From the NCBI RefSeq assembly GCF_020733635.1, contig NZ_JAJFZL010000001.1:5456001-5520000 (forward strand): 64,000 nt of DNA. Direction: 5' to 3'. The notes below the pieces were generated by a model. It saw nothing but the letters and a program-made list of their open reading frames with translations. It made no database searches and had not been told where the DNA came from. Below, piece by piece: positions 13,130 through 48,792 of the stretch. This DNA is from Nocardia spumae (GTDB lineage Bacteria; Actinomycetota; Actinomycetes; Mycobacteriales; Mycobacteriaceae). Both the position numbers and the translations under genes were made by a program. Within the stretch, counting starts at the first letter, position 1. Every line of letters begins with the position of its first letter.

Positions 13130-13217
13130 CGGCTTCCTCTCCTCCGCCTCGCCCCGGCTGTCGCCGAGGCTGTCGAACCGATGATCACGCGCGGAGGTGG
13201 GTCGAATCTTTGCCGAT

Positions 13218-13235
13218 GCTATGTGCCGACTGTGC
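13218..13235 (-). promoter_or_regulatory. Degenerate PhoP-like direct repeat
   Basis: Two heptamers, GCTATGT (13218-13224) and ACTGTGC (13229-13235) on the plus strand, spaced by 4 nt. They resemble GCTGTGA, the complement of the PhoP half-site TCACAGC. Located 89 bp upstream of the GT39 start at 13129. Each half has two mismatches, so support is weak. Confidence 0.3.
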
Positions 13236-13265
13236 GCACGAGATCGCGGCCGCCGGCCATTCGGC

Positions 13266-15188
13266 TCACGCGCTCAGGTCGTAGACCGTCACCCCGTCGA
13301 TGGTGCGGGCGGTGAAGGTGTTCGCGACCCATTCGGCGATAGCGGCAGCTTCCCGGCTGCCGCCGCTGTCGGCGCCGCGCATACCGGCCATGCCCGCGCC
13401 ACCGATGAAGTAGTGGATCTTGTGCTGGGCCACGTACTCCTCGAACTGTGCCAGGGTCGGCGCGGGGTCGGTGCCGTTGAAGCCGCCGACCGCCATCACC
13501 GGGTTACCGGTGGCGAGCTGGTAGGCGGCGGCGCTGTTGGAGCCGACCGCGGCCGCGACCCAGGTGTAACCGGACGCGTTGTCGTTCAGTGCCGCGACGG
13601 TATTCGAGCTCACCGTGATGCCGCCGAGCAGTCCGCCCATCGGGCCGCCCATCCGTCCCGGACCGTCCGCCGCGGCGGACCCTCCACCGGCGGTCGACCC
13701 ACCGGCCATCCGCATCCCGCCGGGGAAATGCCCGCTGGAGGGACCCGCGGAGGGGATCGCACCGGTGTGCGGGGTCGACGCGGTCGCCAGGGCGTAGGCG
13801 GTGGGACCGGCCAGGCCCGCCGCCAGCGCGACCGCCACCACCCCGGCGGCAAGAGCGCGGGGCAACCTCCCCACGACCAGCAGCAGGGCCGCGGCTCCCA
13901 CGCCCGCGACCGCGACCACCGGCCGCAGCCAGGGCATCCAGTCGCCGGTGCGCGCGAGCAGCAGGCAGGCCAGCACAGTGGTCACCACCAGTGCTCCGGA
14001 AAGGACCGCCGTCGCGCGAATATCGTCGCGCCGCCGCCACAGTTGGGCCGCACCGATCGCCACGCTGCCGGCGATCGCGGGTGCCAGCGCCACGGTGTAG
14101 TACGGATGCAGGATGCCGCCGGCGAAACTGAAGATCGCGCCGGTGAGGACCAGCCAGCCCAGCCACAGCAGCAGCGATGCGCGTACCGGGTCCGTGCGCG
14201 GCGCACGCCGGGTGAGCCACAGCCCGGCCGCGCCGAGGATCAGCGCCGCGGGGATCAGCCAGGCGATCTGACCACCCATCTCCGATCCGAACAGTCGCGC
14301 CCAGCCGACGTCGTAGTTCATATTGCCCAGCCCGCCGACCTCGTCGCCGGTGAGGCGGCCGAAACCGTTGTAGCCCAGGGTCAATTCGAGCACGCTGTTG
14401 TGCTGCGAACCGCCGATGTAGGGCCGATCGGCGGCCGGCCACAACGCCACTACCGCCAGATACCAGCCCGCGGACACCACCACCGCCACCACGGCCGACA
14501 CCGAGCGGATCAGCCGCGTGCGCCAAGGCGCGTGCGCGGCAAGCAGATACACCACCGCGAAGACCGGCAGCACGACGAACGCCTGCATCATCTTGGCCAG
14601 GAACCCGAATCCCACCGCGACACCGGCCAGCGGCAACCACCATGCGGCGCTGTCCTTTTCGATCGCGCGCAGCACACCGTAAGCCGCCACGGTGAGCAGC
14701 AGGACCAGCATGGAATCGGGATTGTCGAAGCGGAACATCAAGGCCGCGACCGGAGTCAGGGCGAGCACCGCACCGGCCAATATTCCCGGCCGGTGGCCGG
14801 CGACCCGCCGGACCCCGGCATACAGTGCCGCGACCGCGAGTACGCCCTCGACGGCCTGCGGTACGAGCAGACTCCACGAATTGAACCCGAAGACGCGCGC
14901 GGACAGGTCCATGACCCACAGCGCACCGGGTGTCTTGTCCACGGTGATCGCGTTGGCGGCGTCGCTGGATCCGAACAGCATCGCCTTCCAGCTCTGTGAT
15001 CCGGCCTGCACCGCCGCGGCGTAGAACTCGTTGGCCCAGCCACCGGCACCCAGGTCCCACGAATACAGCAGCGCGGTCCCCGCGAGTAACGCCACCAGCG
15101 ACAGCCGCCGCCACATCGGGTTCGGTGCGCGGGACGGGCGCGCGGCGGTCACGGGGACCGGGGGTGTATCGAGGACGGTCGTGGTCAT
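13266..15188 (-). CDS. GT39-type polytopic membrane glycosyltransferase (paralogue 2)
   Basis: A 640-residue homologue of the downstream gene, with the same landmarks (ANEFYAAAVQAG, TVDKTPGALWVMDL, RFDNPDSMLVLLL, FLAKMMQAF, HPYYTVALAPA). It has a Gly/Met-rich linker and a C-terminal domain with VMAVGGFNGTDPAPTLAQF and IHYFIGG. It is predicted to transfer a sugar from a lipid carrier to an envelope acceptor; the substrate is unknown. The start at ATG 15188 leaves a 10-base gap to the histidine kinase stop, so the gene probably follows the two-component genes in one transcript. An exact PhoP-type box at 15232-15249 may give it an additional internal promoter. Confidence 0.8.
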   Translation of the reverse strand: MTTTVLDTPPVPVTAARPSRAPNPMWRRLSLVALLAGTALLYSWDLGAGGWANEFYAAAVQAGSQSWKAMLFGSSDAANAITVDKTPGALWVMDLSARVFGFNSWSLLVPQAVEGVLAVAALYAGVRRVAGHRPGILAGAVLALTPVAALMFRFDNPDSMLVLLLTVAAYGVLRAIEKDSAAWWLPLAGVAVGFGFLAKMMQAFVVLPVFAVVYLLAAHAPWRTRLIRSVSAVVAVVVSAGWYLAVVALWPAADRPYIGGSQHNSVLELTLGYNGFGRLTGDEVGGLGNMNYDVGWARLFGSEMGGQIAWLIPAALILGAAGLWLTRRAPRTDPVRASLLLWLGWLVLTGAIFSFAGGILHPYYTVALAPAIAGSVAIGAAQLWRRRDDIRATAVLSGALVVTTVLACLLLARTGDWMPWLRPVVAVAGVGAAALLLVVGRLPRALAAGVVAVALAAGLAGPTAYALATASTPHTGAIPSAGPSSGHFPGGMRMAGGSTAGGGSAAADGPGRMGGPMGGLLGGITVSSNTVAALNDNASGYTWVAAAVGSNSAAAYQLATGNPVMAVGGFNGTDPAPTLAQFEEYVAQHKIHYFIGGAGMAGMRGADSGGSREAAAIAEWVANTFTARTIDGVTVYDLSA

Positions 15189-15198
15189 GATTCGATCG

Positions 15199-16815
15199 TT
15201 ATCGACCGAGGTGGTTGGCATCTTCGGCCTGGCTGTGAGCTCGCTGTGAGGAATCCGGTTCGCCTGTCCCGCGCTCACCGGGCAGCCGGACGGTGAACAC
15301 GGTCCGGCCGTGCGCACTGTCCACGCCGATCTCACCGCCGTGCGATTTCACCACCGCCGCCACGATCGCCAATCCCAGACCGCTGCTGCCGGCCCGGCGC
15401 GACCGCGAGGAATCCCCGCGCGCGAATCGTTCGAACACCTCGGGCCGCAGGTGCGCCGGGATACCGGGACCGTCGTCGGTGACCCGCCAGATCGCCGCAC
15501 CGTCGCCGTCTCGATCGAGCGCGACCGTCACGGTGGTGCCCGGGCCGGTGTGCACCCGCGCGTTCGCGAGCAGATTGGCCAGCACCTGGTGCAGGCGTGC
15601 CCCGTCGCCGGTGATCACCACCGGTTCATCGGGCAGGTCCAGATTCCACCGATGGTCCGGGCCCGCGATATGGGCGTCACTGACGGCGTCGACGGTGAGT
15701 CTGGTCAGGTCCACCGGTTCGTGCTCGAGTCCGCGCCCGGAGTCCAGCCGGGCCAGCAGCAACATATCCTCGACCAGCGCCGTCATCCGCCGCGATTCCG
15801 AATCCACCCGGCTCATCGCATTGGCGACATCGCCGGGCACCTCGGCCCGTTTCCGTTGCGCCAGTTCGGCATAGCCGCGAATCGCCGCGAGCGGCGTGCG
15901 CAGTTCGTGGCTGGCGTCGGCGAGGAACTGCCGCACCCTGGTCTCACTGGCATGGCGGGCCGACAACGCGCCGTCGATGTGATCGAGCATGCGATTGACC
16001 GCCGATCCGAGCTGACCGACCTCGGTGCCCGGATCGGCGTCGGCGGCCGGCACCCGGACCGGCAGCACGACCTCACCGCGGTCGAGTTGCAGATCGGCGA
16101 CCCGCGCCGCGGTGGCGGCGACCCGGTCCAGCGGAGTCAGCGCCCGGCGGATCACCCAGATGCCCACCGTGATCGCGATGACCAGTACCACCGCGGTCAC
16201 CACCACCAGAATCAGCAGCACCCGCATCAATGTCGCGTGCACGGCGGTGAGCGGCATACCCGTCACCACGGTGGCCCCCGACCAGGTCGAATTCGCGACC
16301 ACGCGATAGGAGCCCTGTCCGTCGAGGTCGACGGTGATCGGATCGCCGTCGGACGACACCCGGGCCAGCTGATCCCGCGCGGTCGCCGACAGCGCGGTCT
16401 GGGTGCCGTCGGCGTCGATCTTGGCGGCGGTGATCACCGATCCGTCGATACTCGCGCCGACGGTATCGGCCTGTATTCCGCGCCGGTCCAGGAAGTCGGG
16501 GCCCGGACCGGAATTGGCCGGTGGCGGCGGAGGCGGCCGATGGCCCTGGTCCCGGATCCCCGGCGGGGGCCCCAGGCTCGGACCACCGCCGGCCTCGCCG
16601 AGCGAGCGCTTCTGCACATCGACCAGTTCGGTGTCGAGCTGATGGACCAGGAACTGCTGCAGCGCGAACTCGGTCGCCGCGCCGATACCGACGACCACGA
16701 CCACCAGCAGCAGCACCTGACCGACGAGCAATCGTGCCCGCAGCGACCACCCGCGCGGCGACCAGCGGCGCCGCACCGGGCCGTCAGCCGGCGGGTTTGA
16801 GGACATATCCGGCAC
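15199..16815 (-). CDS. Sensor histidine kinase of a PhoR/MprB-like two-component system
   Basis: A 538-residue membrane kinase. TM1 lies at about residues 27-50 and TM2 at about 215-240. They enclose an extracytoplasmic sensor loop of about 165 residues with a Pro-rich stretch. A HAMP linker follows. The DHp helix carries the phospho-acceptor His303 in ASHELRTPLAAIRGYAEL. The ATPase domain shows the N box (HQVLANLLANARVH), the G1 box (VTDDGPGIP), the F box (FERFARGD) and the G2 box (GSSGLGLAIV). The gene overlaps the response regulator stop by 32 bases (ATG 16815; ATG 16806 possible), so the two are translationally coupled. Signal unknown. Confidence 0.9.
   Translation of the reverse strand: MPDMSSNPPADGPVRRRWSPRGWSLRARLLVGQVLLLVVVVVGIGAATEFALQQFLVHQLDTELVDVQKRSLGEAGGGPSLGPPPGIRDQGHRPPPPPPANSGPGPDFLDRRGIQADTVGASIDGSVITAAKIDADGTQTALSATARDQLARVSSDGDPITVDLDGQGSYRVVANSTWSGATVVTGMPLTAVHATLMRVLLILVVVTAVVLVIAITVGIWVIRRALTPLDRVAATAARVADLQLDRGEVVLPVRVPAADADPGTEVGQLGSAVNRMLDHIDGALSARHASETRVRQFLADASHELRTPLAAIRGYAELAQRKRAEVPGDVANAMSRVDSESRRMTALVEDMLLLARLDSGRGLEHEPVDLTRLTVDAVSDAHIAGPDHRWNLDLPDEPVVITGDGARLHQVLANLLANARVHTGPGTTVTVALDRDGDGAAIWRVTDDGPGIPAHLRPEVFERFARGDSSRSRRAGSSGLGLAIVAAVVKSHGGEIGVDSAHGRTVFTVRLPGERGTGEPDSSQRAHSQAEDANHLGR
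15232..15249 (-). promoter_or_regulatory. PhoP-type direct repeat upstream of the GT39 gene
   Basis: On the minus strand the site reads TCACAGC, 4 bases, TCACAGC, an exact match to the two-heptamer PhoP consensus described in mycobacteria. It lies 43 bp upstream of the ATG at 15188, inside the 3' end of the kinase gene. Confidence 0.6.
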
Positions 16816-20628: not shown

Positions 20629-21381
20629 CTACCGCCGCGAGAGCCGATCGAACACCACACTCGCCACCCCGAATCCGAGTGCGGCCAGGCCCGCGCACCA
20701 CAGCACGGCGAGCCCGGCGCCGGTCCCGATCCCGGTCGAATTCAGCAGGCCACGCACCGTGTCGACCACCGGTGTCGCGGGCTGGTAGTCGGCGAAACCG
20801 CGCAGCCAGCCGGGCATCGTCTCGGTGCGCACGAAAGCGCTGCTGATATACGGGACGAACATGATCGCGTAGGTCATCCCACCGGCCGCCTCCGGATTCT
20901 TGGCCACCAACCCGAGGGCGACCGCGATCCACGAGATCGCCACCACGAACAGCACGATCATGGCCAGCGCACCCAGCCAGCCCAGCACATCCGCCTGCGG
21001 GCGATAACCCAGCACCACCGCCACCGCGACCGCGACCGCGATGGCGCCGAGATTGCGGGCCACCCCCTCCGCCACATGTCCCGCCAGAATCGCCTGCCGG
21101 AACATCGGCAGCGTGCGGAACCGGTCGATACTGCCCTTGGTCATATCGGCCGAGACCGCCGTCGCCGTGATCGACGCACCGAATCCGGTGCACAGCAACA
21201 TGATTCCGGGAACCACATAGTCCAGGTAGGATCCGCCCACCTCGATCGCGCCGCCGAAGACGTAGGTGAACAGCATCATCACCAGGATCGGCATCAGCAA
21301 CGAGATGATCAGGGTGTCCGGACTGCGCAGGGTGTGCCGGGCGCAGCGCCGGAACATGACCGCCGAATCGGCGGCGATCAT
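20629..21381 (-). CDS. ABC-2 type transporter permease (DrrB-like) without adjacent ATPase
   Basis: A 250-residue membrane protein with about six helices and the ABC-2/DrrB pattern: SLLMPILVMMLFTYVFGG, YVVPGIMLL, DMTKGSIDRFRTLPM and AITYAIMF-like helices near the C-terminus. Such permeases export antibiotics or glycolipids together with a DrrA ATPase, but none is encoded nearby. Start choice: a GTG at 21387 overlaps the glycosyltransferase stop as GTGA, and ATG 21381 lies two codons further; the ATG is given. Coupling to a GT1 glycosyltransferase suggests that a glycosylated compound is exported. Confidence 0.82.
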   Translation of the reverse strand: MIAADSAVMFRRCARHTLRSPDTLIISLLMPILVMMLFTYVFGGAIEVGGSYLDYVVPGIMLLCTGFGASITATAVSADMTKGSIDRFRTLPMFRQAILAGHVAEGVARNLGAIAVAVAVAVVLGYRPQADVLGWLGALAMIVLFVVAISWIAVALGLVAKNPEAAGGMTYAIMFVPYISSAFVRTETMPGWLRGFADYQPATPVVDTVRGLLNSTGIGTGAGLAVLWCAGLAALGFGVASVVFDRLSRR

Positions 21382-21383
21382 CC

Positions 21384-22661
21384 TCACCGGGCGGCCGCCT
21401 CGACGATGTCGGCGGTCCGGACCGCGGCGCCCTCGGTACGCAGGGTGGTCGCGAACCGCGCCGCGCGTTCCCGTCGCCCGGGATCGAGCAGCGTCGACAC
21501 CCCGCGCTCCAGGCGGTCGGTCGTGAGCTCGGTGAACCGCATATGCGCACCCAGGCCGAGGCGTTCGACCTGACCGCCCCACATCGGCTGCTCGAACGAC
21601 ACCGAGCACACCAGCGTCGGCAATCCGGCGCGCAAACCTTCGAAGAGGGTGCCGATCCCGCCGTGGTGCACCGCGGCCGCGCAGTGCGGCAACACCAGAT
21701 CGAAGGCGAACGGGCCGACCACCCGCACCGGCGAATCCGGCTGTGCCCCGGCCGCTTCCATACCGCTCCAGCCGGCGCCGACCAGGGCGCGGATGCCGAG
21801 CCGGCGCGAGACCTCGTGCACCATCGCCACGACGGCGGCCGGATCGGCGATCGGCATACTGCCGAATCCGAAGAACACCGGCGCGTCCCCCGCCTCGATC
21901 CAGGCCAGGATGTTGGTGTGGGCATCGCCCAGTTCGCCGATCGCCTGTCGGGTGGCCTGATCGAGGGTGAGGAATCCGGTGAAGGGCCGGCGGTCGTCCC
22001 ACTGCTCGGGCAAGCCGGGTACCAGCGCCGGATCGTAGATCTGTATCTCCGGCACCCGGCGCCGCGCCATGACGGCGGCGATACCCGCGCGCGACTTCGG
22101 CAGGCCGAGGGTGGCACGCAGGTCGTTGAGATAGCGCATGAACACGACGCGGCGCAGATTCTCCGCCACCGTCCACGTGGCGCGGTTGACCGCGGCGGGC
22201 GGGACCCAGCTCGGCGGCAGCGCGCCGGGGAACGGATAGGCGCCGTTGGCCCGCGCCGGGTAGTAGTGCAGGCTGACCAGGGGAACGTCCATCGCCTCGG
22301 CGACCGAGGTCGCCCGGTCCTCGGTGACCGTACTGGCCACGATCAGCTCGGCGCCCGCGCACACCTCGACCACCTCGCGGTTCATCCGGTCGGCGTACTC
22401 GGCCATCTGCCGCGCGACCAGCTGCATCAGCCGCAGCGTATTGCCCGCCGCGAGTGCGCGCTGCCCCTCCTCGGAGCTGTAGAGCTGCTGCACATCGGGC
22501 CCGCAGGCCTGTGCGGACAGGCCCGCCGAGGCCGCGAACTCGACCAGATTCGGCGGTGCCCCGAGCACCACGTCGTGGCCGCGGCGCCGCAACTCCAGCC
22601 CCAGGGCGAGCACCGGTTGCACATCACCGCGGGTGCCGGTCAGCGGGATCGCGATTCTCAC
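21384..22661 (-). CDS. GT1-family glycosyltransferase (MGT/UGT-like)
   Basis: A 425-residue GT-B glycosyltransferase. The N-terminal Rossmann half begins IAIPLTGTRGDVQPVLALGL, typical of enzymes that glycosylate lipids, polyketides or glycopeptides. The C-terminal donor-binding half contains FGFGSMP, LPHCAAAVHHGGIGTLFEGL with the HHGGIGT nucleotide-sugar loop, and PTLVCSVSFEQPMWG. The general base His near the N-terminus is not obvious; the segment after GDVQP has no H-x-x-P. It overlaps the permease gene by a GTGA junction and diverges from the GT4-P450 fusion. It probably decorates a hydrophobic natural product. Confidence 0.87.
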   Translation of the reverse strand: MRIAIPLTGTRGDVQPVLALGLELRRRGHDVVLGAPPNLVEFAASAGLSAQACGPDVQQLYSSEEGQRALAAGNTLRLMQLVARQMAEYADRMNREVVEVCAGAELIVASTVTEDRATSVAEAMDVPLVSLHYYPARANGAYPFPGALPPSWVPPAAVNRATWTVAENLRRVVFMRYLNDLRATLGLPKSRAGIAAVMARRRVPEIQIYDPALVPGLPEQWDDRRPFTGFLTLDQATRQAIGELGDAHTNILAWIEAGDAPVFFGFGSMPIADPAAVVAMVHEVSRRLGIRALVGAGWSGMEAAGAQPDSPVRVVGPFAFDLVLPHCAAAVHHGGIGTLFEGLRAGLPTLVCSVSFEQPMWGGQVERLGLGAHMRFTELTTDRLERGVSTLLDPGRRERAARFATTLRTEGAAVRTADIVEAAAR

Positions 22662-22770: not shown

Positions 22771-25377
22771 ATGAGCTCTCAATCAACCGGGCACGTAGGT
22801 ATCGTGCCGAGCGTGCACATAGCCATGTTCATGGACTATCACCCGACGACACTCGGCGGGGTGCAAACCGCGGTCGCGGCACTGCGCCGGGGACTCGAAC
22901 GTGCCGGGCACCGGGTGACGCTGTTCGCCGCGCCGCTGCCGGGCGCCGCGGCGGAGCCGGACGACGATGTCGTCGAACTCGCGCCACTGGCCGGTGCGGT
23001 GGTGAACGGATTCCCGATGGTGCTGCCCACCGCGCGCAACGCCGCCCTGATCGATGCCGCCTTCGCCGCCCGCGGACCGATCGATATCGTGCACACCCAC
23101 ACCACCTACGGGGTGGCCATCTCGGGTATGAAAGCCGCCCGCAGGCATCGCATTCCGCTGATCCACACCGCGCAGAGCCGCGACGACGCCTTCATCGAGA
23201 ACACCGCGCCGGCGCCGTATCTATCGGCGCTGGCGCTGCGTACCCTGCACGGCCGCTTCGTCGACCATCCCGCGGACAGGCCGCGGCGCCCGGAGAGCCG
23301 GGCGGCACGCCACGCCTGGCACACCATCGTGGGCCAGGGCCAGGCGGCCGATCGGGTGATCGCACCGACCCGGCATTTCGCGGATCTGATGCTCGCGCAC
23401 GGACTCTCCACCCCGATCGAGGTGGTATCCAACGGTGTCGACGACGCGCTGCTCGATCGCGCCGACCGCGACGGGGACCACGAGCGGCGCGGTCCGCTGC
23501 GGCTGATCTGGTGCGGACGGCTGTCGGCGGAGAAACGCCTGCTCGAATCCATCGAAGCCGTGCGGCGCAGTCCGGGATGCACGCTCGACGTCTACGGTGA
23601 CGGCGATCTGTCCGGCCGGGCGGCCGCCGCCGTCGCCGACCACGGTCTCGGGCAGCGGGTCACGCTGCACGGCCGAGTCTCCCAGCGGGAATGCCTCGAC
23701 GCGATGGCGGACGCCGACGCTCTGCTGTTCCCGTCCTGGGGTTTCGACACCCAGGGCATGGTGCTGCTCGAGGCCATCGCGGTGGGCCTGCCCGTCGTGT
23801 ATTGCGATCCCGATCTCGCCGAATCGGTTCCGGTGGCGGCCAGTGTGCGGGCCGGCGACGCCTCACCGGCGGCCATCGCGGCCGCCATCGACGCACTGGC
23901 CGGCGATCGTGAGCGGCTGGCGGCGCTGCGCGCCGAGATGAACCGGCACCGGGATTCGGTGCGGCAGTCGCATCGCGTCGAGGAGATCGCCGAGATCTAC
24001 CGGCGGGCCGGTACCGATTCCGAGCCCGCGCCCCATCCCGCCGTCCCGGCGCGGCTGTCGGATGTCCCGACCGCACCGGGCGCCCTGCCGCTGATCGGGC
24101 ACAGTCTGCGGGCACTGCGTGACGCGCCCGGATTCGTCACCTCGCTCGCCGATCTGGGCCCGATCGTGCGGATCCGGTTCGGCCGCAAGACCGGCTACGT
24201 GCTGACGACCCCGGAATTGGTGCGTGAGGTCGGTCTCGGCGAGGCCGAATTGAATCGCGACGACCTGCGCGAGGCGATCGCCGATGTGGCGGGCGGCTCG
24301 GTCAATGTGCTGCGCGGTACCGAGCACAAACTGCGCCGCCGGATGATCGCGCCGGCGCTGCGCCAGACCCGGCTGGCGGATTACGCGGTGACCGCGGCCG
24401 ACTTGGCCGACAGCTGGTCGGCCGGCCTTCCGTCCGGCACCCGGGTCGATCTCATGGACGAGGCGCACGGCCTGGTCCTCGACACCGTGTCCTCGACGCT
24501 GTTCACCGCCGAATTCAGCGCCGCGGCGCGCCTGCAGATCCGCGACAACGTGCCGTGGCTACTCAGCCAGGTCATCCTGCGCACCGCGCTGCCGCCTCAG
24601 CTCCGGCGAGTTCGACTGGTCGCGAATGCGCGGTGGCGGTACAAGGCCCGGCAACTGCGGTCCTCGATCGGCGCGGCCATCACCGAATATCGCCGCCGCG
24701 ACGAGGATTTCAACGATGTGGTCTCCGCGCTGATCCGGCACACCGATCCGGAGACCGGGGCACGGCTGTCGGACGAGCACATCATCGACGAGGCCATTCT
24801 CATGCTGGCCGGCGGTGTGGGGTCGATGGCCTCGCTGACGGGCTGGCTGTGGCACGAGGTGATGCGCAGGCCCGCGGTCGCCGAACGCCTCCGCGCCGAA
24901 CTCGACGATGTGGTCGGCCCGGGCCCGGTTCGCGCCGATCACCTCGGCAAACTCTCCTACCTGAAACAGGTTGTCTCGGAGACACTTCGGTTCTGGGGCC
25001 CGTGGATCAGCGCCGGCAACGCCTCGGGCCCGGTCACCGTCGGCGGACTCACCATTCCCGACGGCACCGCCATCATGTTCAGCCCGTACCTGGTACAGCA
25101 CGACAAACGGCACTTCCCCAATCCGGAGGCGTTCGATCCCGACCGCTGGTCACCCGATCGCGCCGACGATATCGACAAGAAGGCCAACCTGTCCTTCGGT
25201 GTCGGGCGCCGGCGGTGCCTCGGCGATCACTTCGCACTGCTCGAGATCACCCTCGCCTCGGCGGCCCTGCTGGCCCGCTGGCGTCCGGTGCCCGATCCGA
25301 ATTACGTCGTGCGGGCCTCCAACCGGGACTTCGTGTTGTCGCCGTCCGCGATTCCGGCGACACTGCACCCCAGGTAA
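22771..25377 (+). CDS. GT4 glycosyltransferase-cytochrome P450 fusion protein
   Basis: One uninterrupted frame of 868 codons carries two enzymes. Residues about 15-410 are a GT4 GT-B glycosyltransferase: FMDYHPTTLGGVQTAV, DIVHTHTTYG, VVSNGVDD, WCGRLSAEKRLLESI and the EX7E region (FDTQGMVLLEAIAVGLPVVY). After a Pro-rich linker (about 412-430), residues 430-868 are a P450 with APGALPLIGHSL, ETLR (Glu737-Arg740) and the heme loop FGVGRRRCLG (Cys816). The I-helix reads AGGVGS at 680-685 where AG-x-(D/E)-T-T is normal, so the usual acid-alcohol pair is missing. The start is ATG 22771, with no strong ribosome site; a later GTG or ATG is possible. It is divergent from the GT1-permease pair. Confidence 0.85.
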   Translation: MSSQSTGHVGIVPSVHIAMFMDYHPTTLGGVQTAVAALRRGLERAGHRVTLFAAPLPGAAAEPDDDVVELAPLAGAVVNGFPMVLPTARNAALIDAAFAARGPIDIVHTHTTYGVAISGMKAARRHRIPLIHTAQSRDDAFIENTAPAPYLSALALRTLHGRFVDHPADRPRRPESRAARHAWHTIVGQGQAADRVIAPTRHFADLMLAHGLSTPIEVVSNGVDDALLDRADRDGDHERRGPLRLIWCGRLSAEKRLLESIEAVRRSPGCTLDVYGDGDLSGRAAAAVADHGLGQRVTLHGRVSQRECLDAMADADALLFPSWGFDTQGMVLLEAIAVGLPVVYCDPDLAESVPVAASVRAGDASPAAIAAAIDALAGDRERLAALRAEMNRHRDSVRQSHRVEEIAEIYRRAGTDSEPAPHPAVPARLSDVPTAPGALPLIGHSLRALRDAPGFVTSLADLGPIVRIRFGRKTGYVLTTPELVREVGLGEAELNRDDLREAIADVAGGSVNVLRGTEHKLRRRMIAPALRQTRLADYAVTAADLADSWSAGLPSGTRVDLMDEAHGLVLDTVSSTLFTAEFSAAARLQIRDNVPWLLSQVILRTALPPQLRRVRLVANARWRYKARQLRSSIGAAITEYRRRDEDFNDVVSALIRHTDPETGARLSDEHIIDEAILMLAGGVGSMASLTGWLWHEVMRRPAVAERLRAELDDVVGPGPVRADHLGKLSYLKQVVSETLRFWGPWISAGNASGPVTVGGLTIPDGTAIMFSPYLVQHDKRHFPNPEAFDPDRWSPDRADDIDKKANLSFGVGRRRCLGDHFALLEITLASAALLARWRPVPDPNYVVRASNRDFVLSPSAIPATLHPR

Positions 25378-26110: not shown

Positions 26111-26164
26111 CCCGCAGCGGAAACCTTCGTCGTGCTCGACGGTTCATTCTCTGGAGTCACATCT

Positions 26165-27445
26165 TTGACCACGCCACGCACCGCACTGTCCTCAGTTCCC
26201 GGCGGGGGCGGCCCCGCCACCTGCCCCGTTCAGCACATGGGATCCCCGGTCGATTCCGACGAGGTCCGAATCCTGCTGGACACAGCGGAATTCGCCGCAG
26301 ACCCACACGGTACCTATCGCGAGATGCGGCGTCGTTACGGTTCGCTGGTGCCGATCGAACTGTCGCCCGGAGTGCCGGCGACGCTGGTGATCGGCTACCA
26401 CACCGCGCTGCGAATCCTCAACGACCCGGAGCACTTTCCCGCCGACCCGCGGTCCTGGCAGGATTCCGTTCCCGAGGACTGCCCGGTGCGGCCGATGATG
26501 CAGTGGTATCCGAACGCCCTGCGCAACTCCGGGAATACGCACCTGCGCTACCGGCAGGCCTATACGGCCGCCGTCGACGGTATCGATCTGCACGCACTGC
26601 ACACCACGGTCGAGAAGATCGCCGTCCCGCTGATCAACGGATTCTGTGAGTCCGGATCGGCGGATCTGGTATCCCAGTACGCGTTTCCGCTGGTCTTCGA
26701 GGCTCTGAACCGGATGGTCGGATGCTCCGCGGAACTGGGCCAGCGCGTCGCCACCGGTATGGCCGCACTGTTCGACACCGTCAACGCGGCCTGGGGGATG
26801 GAACATCTGAGCCAGGCGCTGATGGAGCTGATCCATCTGCGCCGCGCCGAACCGGGCGACGACGTCACCTCGCGGCTGGCCCACCATCCGGCCAACCTCA
26901 GTGATGAGGAGATGCTCTACAACCTGATCAGCTTCTACGGCGCGGGCATCGAACCGCAGCAGAATCTGATCGCCAACACCCTGCTGCTGATGATCAGCGA
27001 CGACCGCTTCGGCGGCGGCATGCTCGGCGGCAGCCTGTCCACCCGCGACGCGCTGGACGAGGTGTTGTTCAAGGATCCGCCGATGGCCAACTTCTCCATC
27101 AGCTACCCGCGTCAGCCCATCCTGATCGACAACGCCTGGCTGCCGGCCCATCAGCCGGTGGTCATCAGTCTGGCCGCCTGTAACAACGATCCGGTGATCG
27201 CGGGCGGCGACCGCACCGGTAATCGCTCCCATCTGGCGTGGAGTGCCGGGCCACATGCCTGTCCGGCCCGTTCGGTGGCCTATCTGGTGGTGCAGGACGC
27301 CATCGATCAGCTGCTCGACGCCCTTCCGGAGCTCCGGCTCGCGGTCGAGCCGAGCGAACTGAGCTGGCGCCCCGGGCCGTTCCACCGTGCGATGGCGGCG
27401 CTACCGGTCGTCTTCCCCCCATCACCTCCGTTGAATCTGGTCTGA
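26165..27445 (+). CDS. CYP157-family cytochrome P450 lacking the ExxR motif
   Basis: A 426-residue P450-fold protein. The heme ligand is Cys366 in SAGPHACPARS. The I-helix reads FYGAGIEPQQN, as in CYP157 proteins. The K-helix ExxR is replaced by Glu299-Val-Leu-Phe302, so the otherwise nearly invariant Arg is absent. CYP157 members are known to lack ExxR and to sit next to CYP154 genes in Streptomyces conservons. TTG 26165 was chosen because TGGAG lies 8 bases upstream; GTG 26132 in the same frame is possible. The CYP154 start follows 26 bases after the stop. Whether it is a catalyst or a partner protein is unknown. Confidence 0.82.
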   Translation: MTTPRTALSSVPGGGGPATCPVQHMGSPVDSDEVRILLDTAEFAADPHGTYREMRRRYGSLVPIELSPGVPATLVIGYHTALRILNDPEHFPADPRSWQDSVPEDCPVRPMMQWYPNALRNSGNTHLRYRQAYTAAVDGIDLHALHTTVEKIAVPLINGFCESGSADLVSQYAFPLVFEALNRMVGCSAELGQRVATGMAALFDTVNAAWGMEHLSQALMELIHLRRAEPGDDVTSRLAHHPANLSDEEMLYNLISFYGAGIEPQQNLIANTLLLMISDDRFGGGMLGGSLSTRDALDEVLFKDPPMANFSISYPRQPILIDNAWLPAHQPVVISLAACNNDPVIAGGDRTGNRSHLAWSAGPHACPARSVAYLVVQDAIDQLLDALPELRLAVEPSELSWRPGPFHRAMAALPVVFPPSPPLNLV

Positions 27446-27471
27446 CGAGCAACGAATACAGGAGCTTTCCG

Positions 27472-28686
27472 ATGACAACCGAACCACTGGTGCTCGATCT
27501 GACCGGTGCCGACATCCAGGCCGAGAACGAGCGCATCCGCGAGCGCGGTCCCGTCGCGCTGGTGGAACTTCCGGGTGGGGTTCCGGCCTGGTCGGTCACC
27601 GATGCCGTGGTGTTGAAGAGTCTGCTGTCCGATGCCCGGGTCTCCAAGGATCCGCGTCAGCACTGGTCGGCCTACATGAACGGCGATATCAACGAATCGT
27701 GGCCGCTGCAGCCGTGGGTCGCGGCGCAGAACATGTTCACCGCCTACGGTCCCGACCATCGGCGGCTGCGCAAACTGGTCGCACCGGCCTTCACCCATCG
27801 CCGCACGACCGATATGCGGCCGCGGATCGAGGCGATCGTCGAAGATCTGCTGACCCGTCTCGGCGCGACGGCTCCCGGCGAGGTCGTGGACCTGCGCCCG
27901 AACTACGCCTATCCGGTGCCGATCCGGGTCATCAGTGAACTGCTGGGGGTGCCCGAGCACCTGGACGCCGATATCCACGCGTGCGTCGACGGATTCTTCG
28001 ACACCTCGTTCACCCCGGAGCAGGCGCAGGCCAACTTCATCGAAATGGGCCGGCTCATCGGCGAACTGGTGGCGTACCGGCGGGACAACCCCGGTGACGA
28101 CATCACCAGCGTGCTGATCGCCACCCGCGACGAGGACGGTTCCCGGCTGTCGGAGACCGAACTCGTCGACACCCTCATGCTGGTGATCAACGCCGGTCAC
28201 GAGACCACGCTGAATCTGATCGACCAGGCGATCGTCGCGATGCTCACCCATCCGCAGCAGCGTGCCGATGTCGTCGAGGGCCGGGTGCCGTGGGCGGAGC
28301 TGATCGAGGAGACCCTGCGCTACCAGGCGCCGGTGGCTCATCTGCCGCTGCGCTACGCGGTCGAGGACATCACGATCGGCGAAATCCTCATCCCCAAGGG
28401 CGAGGCGATCCTGGCCTCCTACGCCGCCGCCTGCCGGGACCCGCAGTTGCACGGCGCCACCAACGCCGAGTTCGACGTGCACCGGGAGAACAAGGAACAC
28501 CTGGCCTTCGGCCACGGCGCGCACCACTGCCTGGGCGCGCCGCTGGCCCGCATGGAAGCCGCGATCGCCCTGCCGGCGATCTTCGAGCGCTTCCCGACCA
28601 TGCGACTGGCAGTGCAGCCGTCGGAGCTGGCGCCACTGGGCAGTTTCATCTCCAACGGGCACCTCTCGGTACCGGTATACCTGTAG
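27472..28686 (+). CDS. CYP154-family cytochrome P450
   Basis: A 404-residue bacterial class I P450 with all standard signatures: I-helix VINAGHETTLNL, K-helix EETLRYQAP, heme loop AFGHGAHHCLGAPLAR. AGGAG is 7 bases before the ATG. Tandem arrangement directly behind a CYP157 gene is the conserved CYP157-CYP154 pairing known from streptomycetes, which supports the subfamily call. Members hydroxylate steroids, macrolactones or terpenoids. No ferredoxin or reductase gene is adjacent. Transcription probably ends at the hairpin 28701-28752. Confidence 0.87.
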   Translation: MTTEPLVLDLTGADIQAENERIRERGPVALVELPGGVPAWSVTDAVVLKSLLSDARVSKDPRQHWSAYMNGDINESWPLQPWVAAQNMFTAYGPDHRRLRKLVAPAFTHRRTTDMRPRIEAIVEDLLTRLGATAPGEVVDLRPNYAYPVPIRVISELLGVPEHLDADIHACVDGFFDTSFTPEQAQANFIEMGRLIGELVAYRRDNPGDDITSVLIATRDEDGSRLSETELVDTLMLVINAGHETTLNLIDQAIVAMLTHPQQRADVVEGRVPWAELIEETLRYQAPVAHLPLRYAVEDITIGEILIPKGEAILASYAAACRDPQLHGATNAEFDVHRENKEHLAFGHGAHHCLGAPLARMEAAIALPAIFERFPTMRLAVQPSELAPLGSFISNGHLSVPVYL

Positions 28687-28700
28687 GTCCGAACGGATTC

Positions 28701-28752
28701 GAACCACCGCCGCGCCCAGTGTCCACGCCGACACCGGGCGCGGCGGTGGTTC
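28701..28752. terminator. Long hairpin terminator after the P450 pair
   Basis: 23-bp stem with a single mismatch (GAACCACCGCCGCGCCC outer arm, GTGTC inner arm, 6-nt loop), starting 15 bases after the CYP154 stop. No T-tract. Confidence 0.7.
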
Positions 28753-28809
28753 ATCGGCGGCTCCGGTATGGCAGGGTGAGCGAATCCGGATGCGAGAGGG
28801 GCGAAGCCG

Positions 28810-29523
28810 ATGGGGTCGTGGCCGGTGTACAACCTGTCCCATCCCCTGTCGGCGACGGCGATCTCGGTCTTCCCCGGTGATCCCGCACCGCGGATAGACA
28901 CCATCCGCACCATCGACGAGCACGGATTCCACCTCAACACCGTCACCGTCGGTGAGCACACCGGAACCCATTGGGGCGCACCGGCGCATTTCACCACCGA
29001 CGGTGCCACGGCCGACCAGCTCGATGCCGAGGATTTCGTCCTGCCCGGGGTACTGATCGATATCGGCGACCGCACCGAACGAGATCGCGACTACGCCCTG
29101 ACCGTGGCCGATCTGCTGTCTTGGCGGGATCGCCACGGCCCCTTCCCCACCGAGGCCGCGGTCCTGCTGCGAACCGGCTGGGACCGATACTGGGGCACAG
29201 CAGATTTCGCGGGCGTCGACGCCGAGGGCCGGATGCATCACCCGGGTTTCTCGGTGGCCGCGGTGCGATGGTTGCTCGACGAGGGTGTGCTGGGATATCG
29301 CGGCGCGCTCGGCACCGACGCGTTCGGTCCGGATGTCGGCGTCGACGACAGCTTCGAGGTGTCGAAACTGCTCTATCGCGAACACCGGCTCAGCCTGGAG
29401 ATCCTCACCCGGCTCGGGAATCTGCCCGCGCGCGACTTCACCGTCGTGGTCGGCGGATTCATCACCGAACACGGCTCCGGATCACCGGCGACGATCTACG
29501 CGCTGCTCGGTTCCCCACCGTAG
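28810..29523 (+). CDS. Cyclase-family (kynurenine formamidase-like) metal hydrolase
   Basis: A 237-residue cyclase-superfamily protein. The metal motif normally HxGTHxDxPxH appears here as HTGTHWGAPAHF, so the Asp is replaced by Gly. This may change metal binding. Other landmarks are NLSHPLSATAISVFPGDPAP near the start, VLLRTGWDRYWG, and VGGFITEHGSGSPATIYAL at the C-terminus. Relatives hydrolyse N-formylkynurenine, isatin or act in polyketide ring closure. The GC-rich spacer from the P450 pair contains a terminator, so it probably has its own promoter. Confidence 0.78.
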   Translation: MGSWPVYNLSHPLSATAISVFPGDPAPRIDTIRTIDEHGFHLNTVTVGEHTGTHWGAPAHFTTDGATADQLDAEDFVLPGVLIDIGDRTERDRDYALTVADLLSWRDRHGPFPTEAAVLLRTGWDRYWGTADFAGVDAEGRMHHPGFSVAAVRWLLDEGVLGYRGALGTDAFGPDVGVDDSFEVSKLLYREHRLSLEILTRLGNLPARDFTVVVGGFITEHGSGSPATIYALLGSPP

Positions 29524-29623
29524 TTTCGCCGCGGCCAACAGCACCGGGAACAGCGGAACTCCGGGAACAAAGGCGCGCTGTCCCGCCTTGTCACCGGGAG
29601 AACAGACGAGAGAAGGGAATACG

Positions 29624-30247
29624 GTGACCGACCTGCTGCCGCTCACTCCGGACGAACTGCTGACCACGACCCGCGCCGTCCGGCGCCGCCTCGACCTGTC
29701 CCGGCCGGTGCCGCTGGAGGTGATCCGGGAGGCCCTGGAGGTGGCGCTGCAGGCGCCGTCGGGAGGCAATCGCCAGCACTGGCATTGGATCATCGTCACC
29801 GATCCGGAGGTCAAGGCCCGGGTCGCGGAGTACTACCGCCGATCGCATCTGGCCTACCGCGAGGCCGGTGGCGAACCGGCCGATCCGGCCGCCGCCCGGG
29901 TCGCCACCAGCTCCGACCATCTGCGTGAGGTGATGGCCGAGGTCCCGGTGCTGATCATCGGCGCGATCCGGGTCGGTGGCCCCGACCTCGGCGACAACCA
30001 GGCGGGACTGTGGGGCTCGCTGCTGCCCGCGGCGTGGAATCTGGCGCTGGCGCTGCGGGCTCGGGGTCTGGGCACCACCTGGACCACACTGCATCTGCAG
30101 TACGAGCGCGAGGTCGCCGAGATACTCGGTATTCCCGACGATGTGCGCCAGGGGGTACTGCTGCCGGTCGCCTACACCCTCGGCACCGATTTCCGCCCCG
30201 GGCCGCGCGCGGATCTGGACTCGGTGGTGCACATCAACCACTGGTGA
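29624..30247 (+). CDS. Nitroreductase-family flavoprotein
   Basis: A 207-residue FMN-dependent nitroreductase-fold enzyme. It shows the FMN-phosphate binding start TTRAVRRRLD, then EVALQAPSGGNRQHWHWIIV, WGSLLPAAWNLALALRARGLG and TLGTDFRPGPR. Start is GTG 29624 with AAGGG 6-10 bases upstream. Family members reduce nitro groups, quinones or enones with NAD(P)H. It lies 100 bases after the cyclase gene on the same strand and may be cotranscribed. Substrate unknown. Confidence 0.82.
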   Translation: MTDLLPLTPDELLTTTRAVRRRLDLSRPVPLEVIREALEVALQAPSGGNRQHWHWIIVTDPEVKARVAEYYRRSHLAYREAGGEPADPAAARVATSSDHLREVMAEVPVLIIGAIRVGGPDLGDNQAGLWGSLLPAAWNLALALRARGLGTTWTTLHLQYEREVAEILGIPDDVRQGVLLPVAYTLGTDFRPGPRADLDSVVHINHW

Positions 30248-30479
30248 CGCCCCGGCCCACAAGGCAGTCACCATGTCGTTTCGGCCGCGGCGCCCGGTGT
30301 TCCCCGTGCCCGTCGGCCACCGCGCGATCGCCGGCCGACCGGCACGGCCGGGAAGTCGTAGCGACGCTTCGTCTTTGCGCCTGAGAGCAACGTCGGTTCG
30401 CGTCGGGACAACCGGCGCGAAACCGGCTTGGCTACTTTCGCTTTGCTCACCGTGAAACGGTGGATCGCAAGGAGGAACA

Positions 30480-30530
30480 GTGCGCGATTGTGTTGCTTCG
30501 ATGTGGTGCACGCCGTGGCGATCGCGGTAA
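30480..30530 (+). CDS. Possible 16-codon leader peptide
   Basis: A GTG at 30480 lies 4 bases after the strongest Shine-Dalgarno sequence of the region (AAGGAGG, 30469-30475). It opens a 16-codon frame with Cys at positions 4 and 10 and Trp at 9 and 13, ending at TAA 30528-30530. It overlaps the beginning of the MFS frame in another register. It could be a regulatory leader, a tiny precursor peptide, or simply a misplaced signal belonging to the MFS gene. Confidence 0.3.
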   Translation: MRDCVASMWCTPWRSR

Positions 30531-31744
30531 CCGGCAGGCTGCGAACGAGCGCGTTTCCCGCTGAGGTATGGATCGTTTCGATCTCCACATTTCTCAGCAG
30601 GTCGGTCGGATTTCTCGCACTTTTCTCGACCGCTTTCTACAAGTCGATCGGACTCGGCGCCGCCACACTGACTCTCGCCTTGTTCACCGCCGGTTTCGCG
30701 GGCGTTCTCGGATCCCTCGCCGGCGGGTGGGCAGCCACCCGCTTCGGGTCGACCGATGTGTTGATCGCGGGCTCCGTACTCAACATTCCCCTGTTGTTCC
30801 TCCTCGGTCCGCTGTCCGCTCGGCCCGCCGCGGCTATCGTGGTGGCCTCGGTGAGCGTGGCGGTGACCCAATCGTTCGCCGGGCCGGCCGCGGCCCTGGT
30901 CACCGGCTCCGGCTACGAGGGCAACACCGTGACGATCGTCGCCTTCCACCGAATTTTCCTCAGCACCGGCGTCACGGTGGCTCCCATCGTCGTCGCGCTG
31001 GTCGGTGCGGACAATTTCTCGGCCCTGTTCTATTTGTCCTCGTCGGGTTCGCTGATGACCGCCGTACTGCTGCTGCGCGAACGCGCGCGGCTCCGGGCGG
31101 CGGAGGGGCGAGCGGCCGTGCGGGAGCACCCGGCGGACGTCGTATCCCGGCCTCCCGCCATTGCCGGTCCCGGAGTACACAAGACGCGCCTGTGGGCGGT
31201 GATCCTGGTGTTCGGAACGGCGATGGCGGTCTATTCCCAGAGCCTGAGCGGAATACCGTTGTCCGTCGAGCGGATATCCGGCGGCGCCCACCTGTACGGC
31301 GTGCTGATCGTCGTCAATTCCGTCTTCATCATCGCCTTCGAGATGCCGTTGAGTTACCTGACATCCACACTGAGATGGAACTACGCGCTCGGACTCGGCA
31401 TCTTCCTCGCCGGAGCCGGCCTCGCCATCTGCGGAGTCGGCGCCAGCTGGCCCGTATGTATTTCCGGATTCGCGCTGTTCTCCCTGGGCGAGGCAATTTT
31501 CATCCCGCAGGCCGGCGCGGCGATAGCGAAGCTTTCGACCGCCTCCGAGAACCCTCGATATCAAGGTTGCCTGTCTGCGGCCCAAGCCCTCGGCTTCGCG
31601 GTGGGGCCGGGGATCGGAGCCTTCGGGGTGCTCCACGATCGTGCCGTGTTCTGGGCGGCGGTCGTCCAGATTTCACTGGCCGCGGGGGCGATAGCCGCAG
31701 TAGCGGGCATCAATGAGAACAGGAGCCCACATCGTGTCGGGTAA
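30488..31744 (+). CDS. MFS transporter
   Basis: A protein of about 418 residues with twelve predicted helices, the MFS loop GGWAATRFGS between helices 2 and 3, and a central cytoplasmic loop rich in Arg/Ala. The first helix starts at VWIVSISTFLSRSVGFLALF. The start is uncertain: TTG 30488 is 12 bases from AAGGAGG, longer than usual; GTG codons at 30503 and 30506 are in frame. There is no in-frame ATG before the first helix. The stop overlaps the start of the ATP-grasp gene by 11 bases, so the pair is coupled. Export of the peptide made by that ligase is the simplest reading. Confidence 0.78.
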   Translation: MCCFDVVHAVAIAVTGRLRTSAFPAEVWIVSISTFLSRSVGFLALFSTAFYKSIGLGAATLTLALFTAGFAGVLGSLAGGWAATRFGSTDVLIAGSVLNIPLLFLLGPLSARPAAAIVVASVSVAVTQSFAGPAAALVTGSGYEGNTVTIVAFHRIFLSTGVTVAPIVVALVGADNFSALFYLSSSGSLMTAVLLLRERARLRAAEGRAAVREHPADVVSRPPAIAGPGVHKTRLWAVILVFGTAMAVYSQSLSGIPLSVERISGGAHLYGVLIVVNSVFIIAFEMPLSYLTSTLRWNYALGLGIFLAGAGLAICGVGASWPVCISGFALFSLGEAIFIPQAGAAIAKLSTASENPRYQGCLSAAQALGFAVGPGIGAFGVLHDRAVFWAAVVQISLAAGAIAAVAGINENRSPHRVG

Positions 31745-33005
31745 TTCGGTTTTGGTCGTCGATCCGGTGAGTTCGGGGCGGTTGTATCCCGCCTTGCTCG
31801 AGGAGTACGGGATCAAGAAGATTCTGCTGGATACCGAACGCGCATCGGTGTCGGGTTTCCGCACCTCGCCGACCCCGGGCGCGGTGAATTTCGAGGCGGA
31901 CCTCGGCTCCTCGTATGAGCTGCTGCTTCGAATGTGTGTGGAGCACTCGGTGAAATACGTCATCGCCGGATCGGAACCCGGTGTCGAACTGTGTGAGCGG
32001 TTACGTGGCGATCTGGCGGACTGTCCCACCGGCGATACCGCGTCGCCGATGCGGCGATGGGACAAGCAGCACATGTTCGAAGCGCTCGCTGCCGCTGGAG
32101 TTCCCGGTCTCACCACACTGTCGGTCACCGCCGACCGTCACACCGTTCCAGCCGAGGCCCTCGCGGAGCTGGCGGCGGGCCGGAAGCTGGTGGTGAAGCC
32201 GGCGCGCGGCGCCGCGTCCGTGGATGTCCGGATGGTGGAGACTCGCACACAATTGATCGAGGCCGTCACCGCGATCACCGGCAGTTCGGGGCTTTTCGGG
32301 GGTAACCCGGCCGCCTTGATCCAGGAGATGTATCCGGCTCCCCGGGTGGAATACGCCGTGGACACCTTCTCCACGCCGCGGGGCCACGAACTCCTGTGCG
32401 TGAGCGTCTACGACAAGCGGGTGTCGGGCTCGGGCGATTTCCTCTACGAGCGGGGTCGGTGGCTCGAACATGACGACCCGGCGGTGGGTGAGCTGACCGA
32501 TTACGCGTGGCGCGTACTCGATGCCTTGGGCGTGCGGACGGGGCCGGCGCATATGGAGATCATGGCCGGTCCGCTGGGACCCCGTCTGATCGATTTCGGC
32601 GCACGCGCGCACGGAATCGGCCATCCGCTCCATACTCACCTGCTGACCGGGAACTCGCAGATCCACCGCGAATGTGACTACATCGCAGAGCTTTTCGGAG
32701 TTCGCACACCGGCCGTGCGAAGCAGTGCCGGCTATGTGTTGTCGCGGCGTGGCGCGCTCGTCCTCTTCAGCATCGATCAGCCCGCGCGTTACCTCGGCGC
32801 AGCCGAAGCCGATCTAGCCGGGCTCGCGGGCGTCATGGATGTTCGGATTTCGGCCCAGCCCGGGCAGATCTACCCGGCGACCAGATCGATGATGGATTCG
32901 GTGGCGCTGGGGCTGGTGTTCGTCGTCGCCGACAGCGCCGACGAACTGGATTTCCGATGCGCGGAGGTCCGTAAGCGAGTCGGCGACTTCTTCGTCGCCG
33001 TCTGA
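31734..33005 (+). CDS. ATP-grasp ligase (L-amino-acid ligase-like)
   Basis: A 423-residue ATP-grasp enzyme expected to join a carboxylate to an amine through an acyl phosphate. Visible are the pre-ATP-grasp domain (about 1-110), the ATP-binding lysine segment KLVVKPARGAASVDV, ALIQEMYPAPRVEYAVD and the metal/phosphate region GPAHMEIM followed by PRLIDFGARAHG. This combination is close to dipeptide-forming ligases (carnosine synthase, DabC, BL00235 type). GTG 31734 is preferred because ACAGGAG lies 8 bases upstream; ATG 31713 has none. Coupling to an MFS exporter is typical for dipeptide antibiotic or osmolyte loci. Confidence 0.82.
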   Translation: MSGNSVLVVDPVSSGRLYPALLEEYGIKKILLDTERASVSGFRTSPTPGAVNFEADLGSSYELLLRMCVEHSVKYVIAGSEPGVELCERLRGDLADCPTGDTASPMRRWDKQHMFEALAAAGVPGLTTLSVTADRHTVPAEALAELAAGRKLVVKPARGAASVDVRMVETRTQLIEAVTAITGSSGLFGGNPAALIQEMYPAPRVEYAVDTFSTPRGHELLCVSVYDKRVSGSGDFLYERGRWLEHDDPAVGELTDYAWRVLDALGVRTGPAHMEIMAGPLGPRLIDFGARAHGIGHPLHTHLLTGNSQIHRECDYIAELFGVRTPAVRSSAGYVLSRRGALVLFSIDQPARYLGAAEADLAGLAGVMDVRISAQPGQIYPATRSMMDSVALGLVFVVADSADELDFRCAEVRKRVGDFFVAV

Positions 33006-48679: not shown

Positions 48680-48792
48680 TGGTACTCCTCGGAAACTCTG
48701 ATCGAACTGTGGCCTTCCGGAGAAGGACCGTGCGCGACAACGGAATCCACCCGCTGCCCGCGGTGCGCACTGATTAGGGTGCGCTGAATGTC

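Follow-up and report, generated by a model that had tools for sequence, protein, structure and literature searches.

A Nocardia gene encoding a GT4 glycosyltransferase and a cytochrome P450 in one polypeptide is co-inherited with an AfsA/UbiA gene cluster

Why would a sugar transferase and a cytochrome P450 be produced as a single protein? The question is raised by a 64,000-nucleotide stretch of the Nocardia spumae genome (contig NZ_JAJFZL010000001.1, positions 5,456,001 to 5,520,000 of the forward strand), hereafter called the window. A preliminary description had read one of its open reading frames (ORFs) as a covalent fusion of a family GT4 glycosyltransferase with a P450. The gene and its parts, with lengths in amino acids (aa), are as follows.

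22771..25377, + strand: GT4-P450 fusion gene, 868 aa counted from an ATG, with an in-frame GTG at 22633
22771..24000, + strand: GT4 glycosyltransferase half, residues 1-410, delimited by Pfam and the predicted model
24001..24066, + strand: interdomain linker, residues 411-432, delimited by the Y410-to-P433 spacing in aligned fusions
24067..25374, + strand: cytochrome P450 half, residues 433-868, delimited by Pfam; CYP170A1 (3dbg) is its best sequence match in the PDB

There is no stop inside the 22771-25377 frame, and the 868-aa protein is one polypeptide with a complete GT4 and a complete P450. Pfam places Glyco_transf_4 at residues 29-225 (83.5 bits) and Glyco_trans_1_4 at residues 244-378 (62.7 bits), both above their curated cut-offs, as well as p450 at residues 434-856 (186.1 bits vs a cut-off of 22.8). 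The earlier claims of a single uninterrupted frame, and of about 400 aa for the GT4 and about 440 aa for the P450, were thus borne out. The ATG at 22771 is the called start, but the mechanically defined ORF extends back to the GTG at 22633, so that the exact start codon is uncertain. The linker comprises 22 residues between Y410, the last conserved residue of the GT4, and P433, which opens the 'PxxPG' segment of the P450. It had been described as Pro-rich; it does contain proline (12% over 40 homologues) but is not strongly proline-rich. The Y410-P433 spacing ranges from 10 to 24 residues in 40 aligned fusions, and match coordinates indicate about 90 additional residues near the junction in one lineage (G132).

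A search of the genus at 1e-100 found matches to the fusion in 99 of 150 Nocardia genomes. The fusion itself is present in 69 of the 150, as judged by open frames of at least 854 aa, a count that includes one genome (G045) whose frame is cut by a contig end; the remaining 30 of the 99 have solely a GT4-type match at this threshold. Eight partial matches among the 69 were checked, and all eight carried both motif sets in one frame. The fusion is also present in Gordonia and Tsukamurella. At 1e-60, a family search matched 58 of 401 genomes in 7 of 31 genera, with a mix of fused, P450-only and GT4-only matches. The matches from an order search at 1e-100 (11 of 397 genomes) and a phylum search at 1e-80 (5 of 396) all lie within the same family.

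These searches bear directly on the idea that the fusion was created by an error of sequencing or assembly. Nothing in the window's genome favours it, and the one observation elsewhere that does is a Tsukamurella relative (L081/L072) that reads as two overlapping frames. However, the fusion recurs in the 69 Nocardia genomes and in other genera with its frame kept across the junction, so an artefact has next to no probability and can be regarded as already refuted. The fused relatives in other Nocardia that the preliminary description proposed to look for are those just counted. The possibilities it raised of a sequencing error between the domains, or of homologues that are consistently two separate genes, were rejected on the strength of this recurrence in the homologue, genus and family searches.

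Are both halves equipped for catalysis? The motifs were followed through 132 fused rows of an alignment, which are distinct sequences and include close relatives and the window's own protein.

23518..23535, + strand: donor-site Arg250 and Lys255 of the GT4 half (in WCGRLSAEKR); both residues conserved in 129 of 132 fused rows
23746..23772, + strand: D/E-x7-E motif of the GT4 half, Asp326-Glu334 (DTQGMVLLE); D/E326 and E334 in 129 of 132 fused rows
24802..24837, + strand: I-helix segment of the P450 half, MLAGGVGSMASL, with Gly684 at the place of the usual acid, followed by Ser685; G684 in 132 of 132 fused rows
24979..24990, + strand: ExxR motif of the P450 half, Glu737-Arg740; 132 of 132 fused rows
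25195..25230, + strand: haem-thiolate loop of the P450 half, FGVGRRRCLGDH, with Cys816; Cys in all 132 fused and all 19 P450-only rows

The GT4 half has the GT4-type N- and C-terminal Pfam domains, the Arg/Lys pair, which we take to act at the donor site as in GT4 enzymes, and the E(D)-x7-E motif. Its NCBIfam matches are all far below cut-off (exopolysaccharide EpsE at 63.0 bits; glycolipid synthases at 54.6, 44.1 and 42.4), and among PDB sequences it weakly matches PimA and others. Membership of the P450 half in its superfamily follows from the Pfam score, Cys816 and ExxR. Its best PDB sequence match is CYP170A1 (3dbg, E 3.4e-52), and in the Foldseek rows shown and the VIA-align list its fold is closest to lipid, terpene and sterol P450s. 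An AlphaFold2 (AF2) model built from an alignment of 40 fusions has two confident domains, with a mean predicted local distance difference test score (pLDDT) of 84.3 and, in the haem loop 811-816, a pLDDT under 50. Helices and strands alternate in its GT4 half; the structure matches shown concern the P450 half only.

Most P450s, but not all, carry an acid-alcohol pair in the I-helix for O2 activation. Here, G684-S685 aligns to the E-T pair of CYP170A1, so the usual pair is missing. Glycine also stands at the acid position in 17 of 19 P450-only rows (14 of the 19 being different), with Glu kept only in L088 and L089; the loss of the acid thus seems to predate the fusion. We infer that Gly684 may go with substrate-assisted or otherwise unusual oxygen activation.

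In general, both halves look catalytic, as far as their motifs and conservation indicate. A protein homologue search gave 131 sequences above the cut, and among the 120 listed, which include the window's own protein (P0002), all four tested motif patterns are present in 113. Five fail one pattern by substitution (P0035, P0085, P0093, P0099 and P0104), and the other two (P0115 and P0116) have a large deletion in the GT4 with the P450 intact. These two and L039 account for the three gaps in the GT4 motifs among the fused rows. In 15 loci compared with the window, the ratio of nonsynonymous to synonymous substitution rates (dN/dS) is 0.22-0.47 for the GT4 and 0.11-0.25 for the P450; both halves are under purifying selection.

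The faster evolution of the GT4, its deletion in P0115 and P0116 and its absence from L036, L038, L040 and L041 are what one could cite for regarding it as a decaying passenger of a P450 that alone matters. We consider this improbable, given that the donor-site Arg/Lys and D/E-x7-E are intact in nearly all fused rows and that the dN/dS of the GT4 is well below 1.

What pathway does the fusion serve? In many lineages it adjoins a block of genes whose order, from Pfam matches, is phosphoenolpyruvate (PEP)-synthase-like, FAAL (fatty-acyl-AMP ligase), SDR (thioester-reductase-like), NDK-like, AfsA, in some cases nitroreductase, and UbiA. An AfsA-like gene scoring at least 127 bits, a line chosen after the scores were seen, occurs in 68 of 69 fusion genomes vs none of the 81 other Nocardia genomes (Fisher p 1.4e-42, without correction for shared ancestry). 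The NDK-like gene is present in 69 of 69 and 11 of 81, respectively; around those 11 genes, the stretches contain a PEP-synthase/NDK pair and nothing that matches AfsA, and one of them (G107) is a 4 kb contig only. The sole fusion genome without such an AfsA match is the fragmented assembly G045, whose NDK match covers only residues 3-106.

It is worth stressing that this association is not merely linkage, since the two loci are apart in 30 of the 69 genomes: in 39 genomes no more than 15 kb separates them, in 7 they share a contig but are widely spaced, and in 23 they are on separate contigs. The window's genome belongs to those in which they are separated, with the AfsA/UbiA block at C1:2.06 Mb, 3.4 Mb from the fusion. 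An O-methyltransferase gene lies near the block both there and in L114. The AfsA of the window's genome exceeds the cut-off of 200 of the ScbA/BarX equivalog NF041195 (224.9 bits), as do those of L116 (216.4) and L077 (201.3). P450-only relatives in other genera also adjoin UbiA and AfsA (L067/L075, which are one genome, L084, L085, L088 and L089), and a further one, in the short locus L069, adjoins UbiA. No TetR-type receptor (ArpA/GblR) was found among the six flanking ORFs scanned at the cluster of the window's genome (L102), and L114 gave a weak TetR_N match. In L088 (11149-13029) and L089 (11151-13316), from an outgroup genus, the NDK-like and AfsA genes are themselves fused in one frame.

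Two further genes accompany the fusion in the window.

21384..22661, - strand: divergent GT1 glycosyltransferase with an EryCIII-like C-terminal domain; near the fusion in 28 of 30 fused loci
20629..21387, - strand: DrrB-like ABC-2 permease; 68.3 bits to TIGR00025, below the cut-off of 146.9

Among a first set of 30 fused loci, 28 have each of the two divergent from the fusion and at most 4 kb away, which upholds the earlier claim that a divergent GT1 and an export-type permease go with it. The fused loci lacking the GT1 are L030, where a contig end cuts it, and L039, where the GT4 is degenerate. Among eight further fused loci, six have the GT1 and three the permease. The tailoring or glycolipid role proposed in the preliminary description fits the genes co-inherited with the fusion. 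Its further suggestions, that both domains handle one substrate without releasing it or that the haem domain regulates sugar transfer, are hypothetical.

This GT1 brings to mind the pairs DesVII/DesVIII and EryCIII/EryCII, in which, as in the fusion, a glycosyltransferase is paired with a protein of P450 fold. The P450 half might, by analogy, be an activator of glycosyltransferases derived from a P450 and not a monooxygenase. Such a role would agree with the loss of the I-helix acid and with the EryCIII-like domain of the GT1, which weakly matches the model for activator-dependent glycosyltransferases, TIGR04516 (70.6 bits, cut-off 440). However, helpers of the DesVIII/EryCII type are separate P450-like proteins that are not known to have the haem Cys, and their partner is a GT1. 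In the fusion, the glycosyltransferase is a GT4, the haem Cys and ExxR are invariant in the fused rows, and the helper model TIGR04515 is absent from the 25 families listed for it at E 0.001. An activator is therefore very improbable.

The reading that we favour, with about an even chance of being right, is a bifunctional enzyme in which the P450 oxidises, and the GT4 glycosylates, the product of a lipid pathway of the AfsA/ScbA type (butyrolactone-like). In the scheme that we infer for its substrate, sugar, order of steps, hand-over and export, the AfsA, FAAL, SDR and UbiA enzymes would make a hydrophobic lipid containing a lactone or a prenyl group. The P450 would put an oxygen function on this lipid, and the tethered GT4 would attach a sugar to the resulting hydroxyl. 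The separate GT1 would glycosylate a second site or the same chain, and the DrrB-like permease would export the glycoside. The short tether would fix the stoichiometry of both active sites and may permit the hand-over of a poorly soluble intermediate. A stricter version is a relay within one chain, where the haem domain hydroxylates a lipid of butyrolactone or prenyl type and hands it directly to the GT4, giving oxidised, glycosylated butyrolactone lipids. We hold this to be rather unlikely; were it true, it would reveal an unrecognised class of compounds, signals or envelope glycolipids, common to Nocardia, Gordonia and Tsukamurella.

Several observations speak against the bifunctional enzyme. 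The 127-bit line for AfsA was, as said, set post hoc, and at E 1e-20 AfsA homologues are found in 68 of 69 fusion genomes but also in 16 of the 81 fusion-less Nocardia. The AfsA of L084 scores 166.9, under the ScbA/BarX cut-off, and in L073, L074 and L076, from other genera, the P450 occurs with no AfsA cluster within 19.5 kb. As glycine replaces the I-helix acid in every fused row, ordinary monooxygenation is not assured. The predicted template modelling score (pTM) of the AF2 model is 0.59, and the placement of the GT4 relative to the P450 is therefore uncertain. Additionally, the paralogues P0115, P0116, L036, L038, L040 and L041 have lost or decayed GT4s with an intact P450, an argument against a strict dependence of the P450 on the GT4 half. 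Finally, GT4-only relatives work in a different cluster, of polyketide synthase/nonribosomal peptide synthetase (PKS/NRPS) and reductase genes, beside another GT1.

Because these GT4-only relatives adjoin a GT1, the GT4 may extend the sugar laid down by the GT1 instead of acting on a hydroxyl made by the P450. Both halves would then serve the same pathway without being sequential: the P450 would oxidise elsewhere, and the fusion would secure co-expression and not channelling. L090 and L092 have a GT4-only relative immediately next to a GT1 that shares 32% identity with that of the window, in a cluster without this P450, and a GT1 adjoins the fusion in nearly all fused loci, as described above. 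However, GT1 and P450 occur without the GT4 in L068, L069, L075, L084 and L085, so the GT1 does not need the GT4, and such wide retention of the fusion suggests that the P450 and the GT4 are more closely connected. We thus regard sugar extension as unlikely on balance, though it is the strongest competitor of the bifunctional enzyme.

The cluster in L083, L090 and L092, a separate PKS/NRPS and reductase cluster found with the GT4-only relative in other Nocardia, suggests another glycolipid pathway. A further GT4-only relative (L086, 8843-10087), from a genome that groups with Mycobacterium in the tree, adjoins MmpL- and MmpS-type genes.

How did the fusion arise? Unfused P450s from Rhodococcus, Antrihabitans, Mycobacterium and one further genus fall outside the fused group in the P450 tree. 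Apart from unfused exceptions nested among them, the fused P450s make up a single group with an SH-aLRT support of 90, below the 95 mark; in a larger FastTree the support is 1.0. The nested exceptions are the P450-only L036, L040 and L041 (N. brasiliensis group), L038 and P0253-P0255, a shortened P0249 (647 aa, with the GT4 partly retained) and the split pair in Tsukamurella (L081). P0253-P0255 and P0249 may be gene-calling truncations. With tblastn, no remnant of a GT4 was found upstream of the P450-only genes in L036, L038, L040 and L041.

Constraining all fused rows to be monophyletic was rejected for the P450 half (approximately unbiased test, p-AU 0.00025), as expected if the nested unfused copies are later losses. 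For the GT4 half, a single fused clade is not the best tree, yet it is not rejected (p-AU 0.49), so that GT4-only genes may be either donors or offshoots. The simplest reading of these trees is that the P450 came first, that the GT4 joined it once, and that the GT4 was then lost or decayed several times. Of the two steps, that of the P450 also seems to be the more ancient, since in outgroup genera the P450 stands next to the AfsA/UbiA cluster with no GT4 joined to it. L039 (9791-12190) and P0116 combine an intact P450 with a GT4 half that lacks the donor-binding motifs, a fusion partner in the course of decay.

Is such an architecture known? In the P450 fusions known to us, the partner of the haem domain is a redox protein or, rarely, another oxidative enzyme or a terpene enzyme. 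CYP102A1 (BM3) and the CYP51-ferredoxin of Methylococcus capsulatus likewise hold a P450 of similar fold and a second domain in one chain, but their partner is a redox protein, whereas that of the fusion is an N-terminal sugar transferase; electrons would therefore have to come from elsewhere. CYP170A1 (albaflavenone synthase, PDB 3dbg/3el3) and pentalenene oxygenase belong to the same superfamily as the P450 half. The fusion scores far below the NCBIfam cut-offs for both (272.7 bits vs 800 for pentalenene oxygenase, 248.3 vs 700 for albaflavenone synthase) and, unlike them, has Gly for the I-helix acid and a GT4 partner. No terpene synthase was found among the neighbouring genes scanned in the window.

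The preliminary description did not know the fusion as a described architecture. We found no description of a GT4-P450 architecture in the open-access full-text literature, most subscription journals lying outside that search, so this part of the claim stands; the JGI name of one relative (P0023), however, mentions both domains. The NCBI name for nearly all listed relatives is 'cytochrome P450', which hides the sugar-transferase half. The P450 and GT4 families are known, and their pairing in a multidomain P450 tailoring enzyme is, as far as that search reaches, new. This pairing offers a natural case for testing the hand-over of a substrate from oxidation to glycosylation, with the single-domain outgroups, the GT4-only relatives and the paralogues that lost the GT4 as ready natural controls.

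The cluster in the window's genome resembles the gamma-butyrolactone pathways of ScbA, BarX and AfsA in having an AfsA above the ScbA/BarX cut-off. It differs in its neighbours, namely FAAL, SDR, NDK-like, UbiA and PEP-synthase-like enzymes, from that of Rhodococcus jostii RHA1, given in the main text on gblA as gblA-gblR-gblE with non-conserved flanks (PMC5735094). That main-text account mentions no P450, UbiA or glycosyltransferase (PMC5735094). Judging from the co-inheritance, close to half of the searched Nocardia genomes have an AfsA/UbiA pathway, of which we found no description.

Downstream of the fusion, the window carries two P450-family genes, a cyclase, a nitroreductase, a possible MFS transporter and an ATP-grasp gene (26132-33005). 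Among the examined loci, only those of a clade of N. nova-like genomes have DinB and the first downstream P450 flanking the fusion, and a distant relative (35-38%) of the second flanks it in L042, L054 and L082. These genes were left out of the system. The first of the two adjacent P450-family genes, which together span 26132-28686, weakly matches TIGR04515 (52.1 bits, cut-off 343). The putative cyclase, nitroreductase, a gene of 382-438 aa with weak MFS matches, and ATP-grasp gene (28810-33005) perhaps form a separate small biosynthetic cluster.

A defence system was also considered and dropped, no PADLOC family being matched. Elsewhere in the window, a tandem pair of YkcB-like membrane mannosyltransferase genes (11057-15335) adjoins a two-component system, and very long frames on the - strand (42332-63960) are likely a type I PKS. 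A scan of 42332-49006 recognised ketosynthase, acyltransferase, dehydratase, enoylreductase-like, ketoreductase and carrier domains; an aminotransferase and a thioesterase lie close by.

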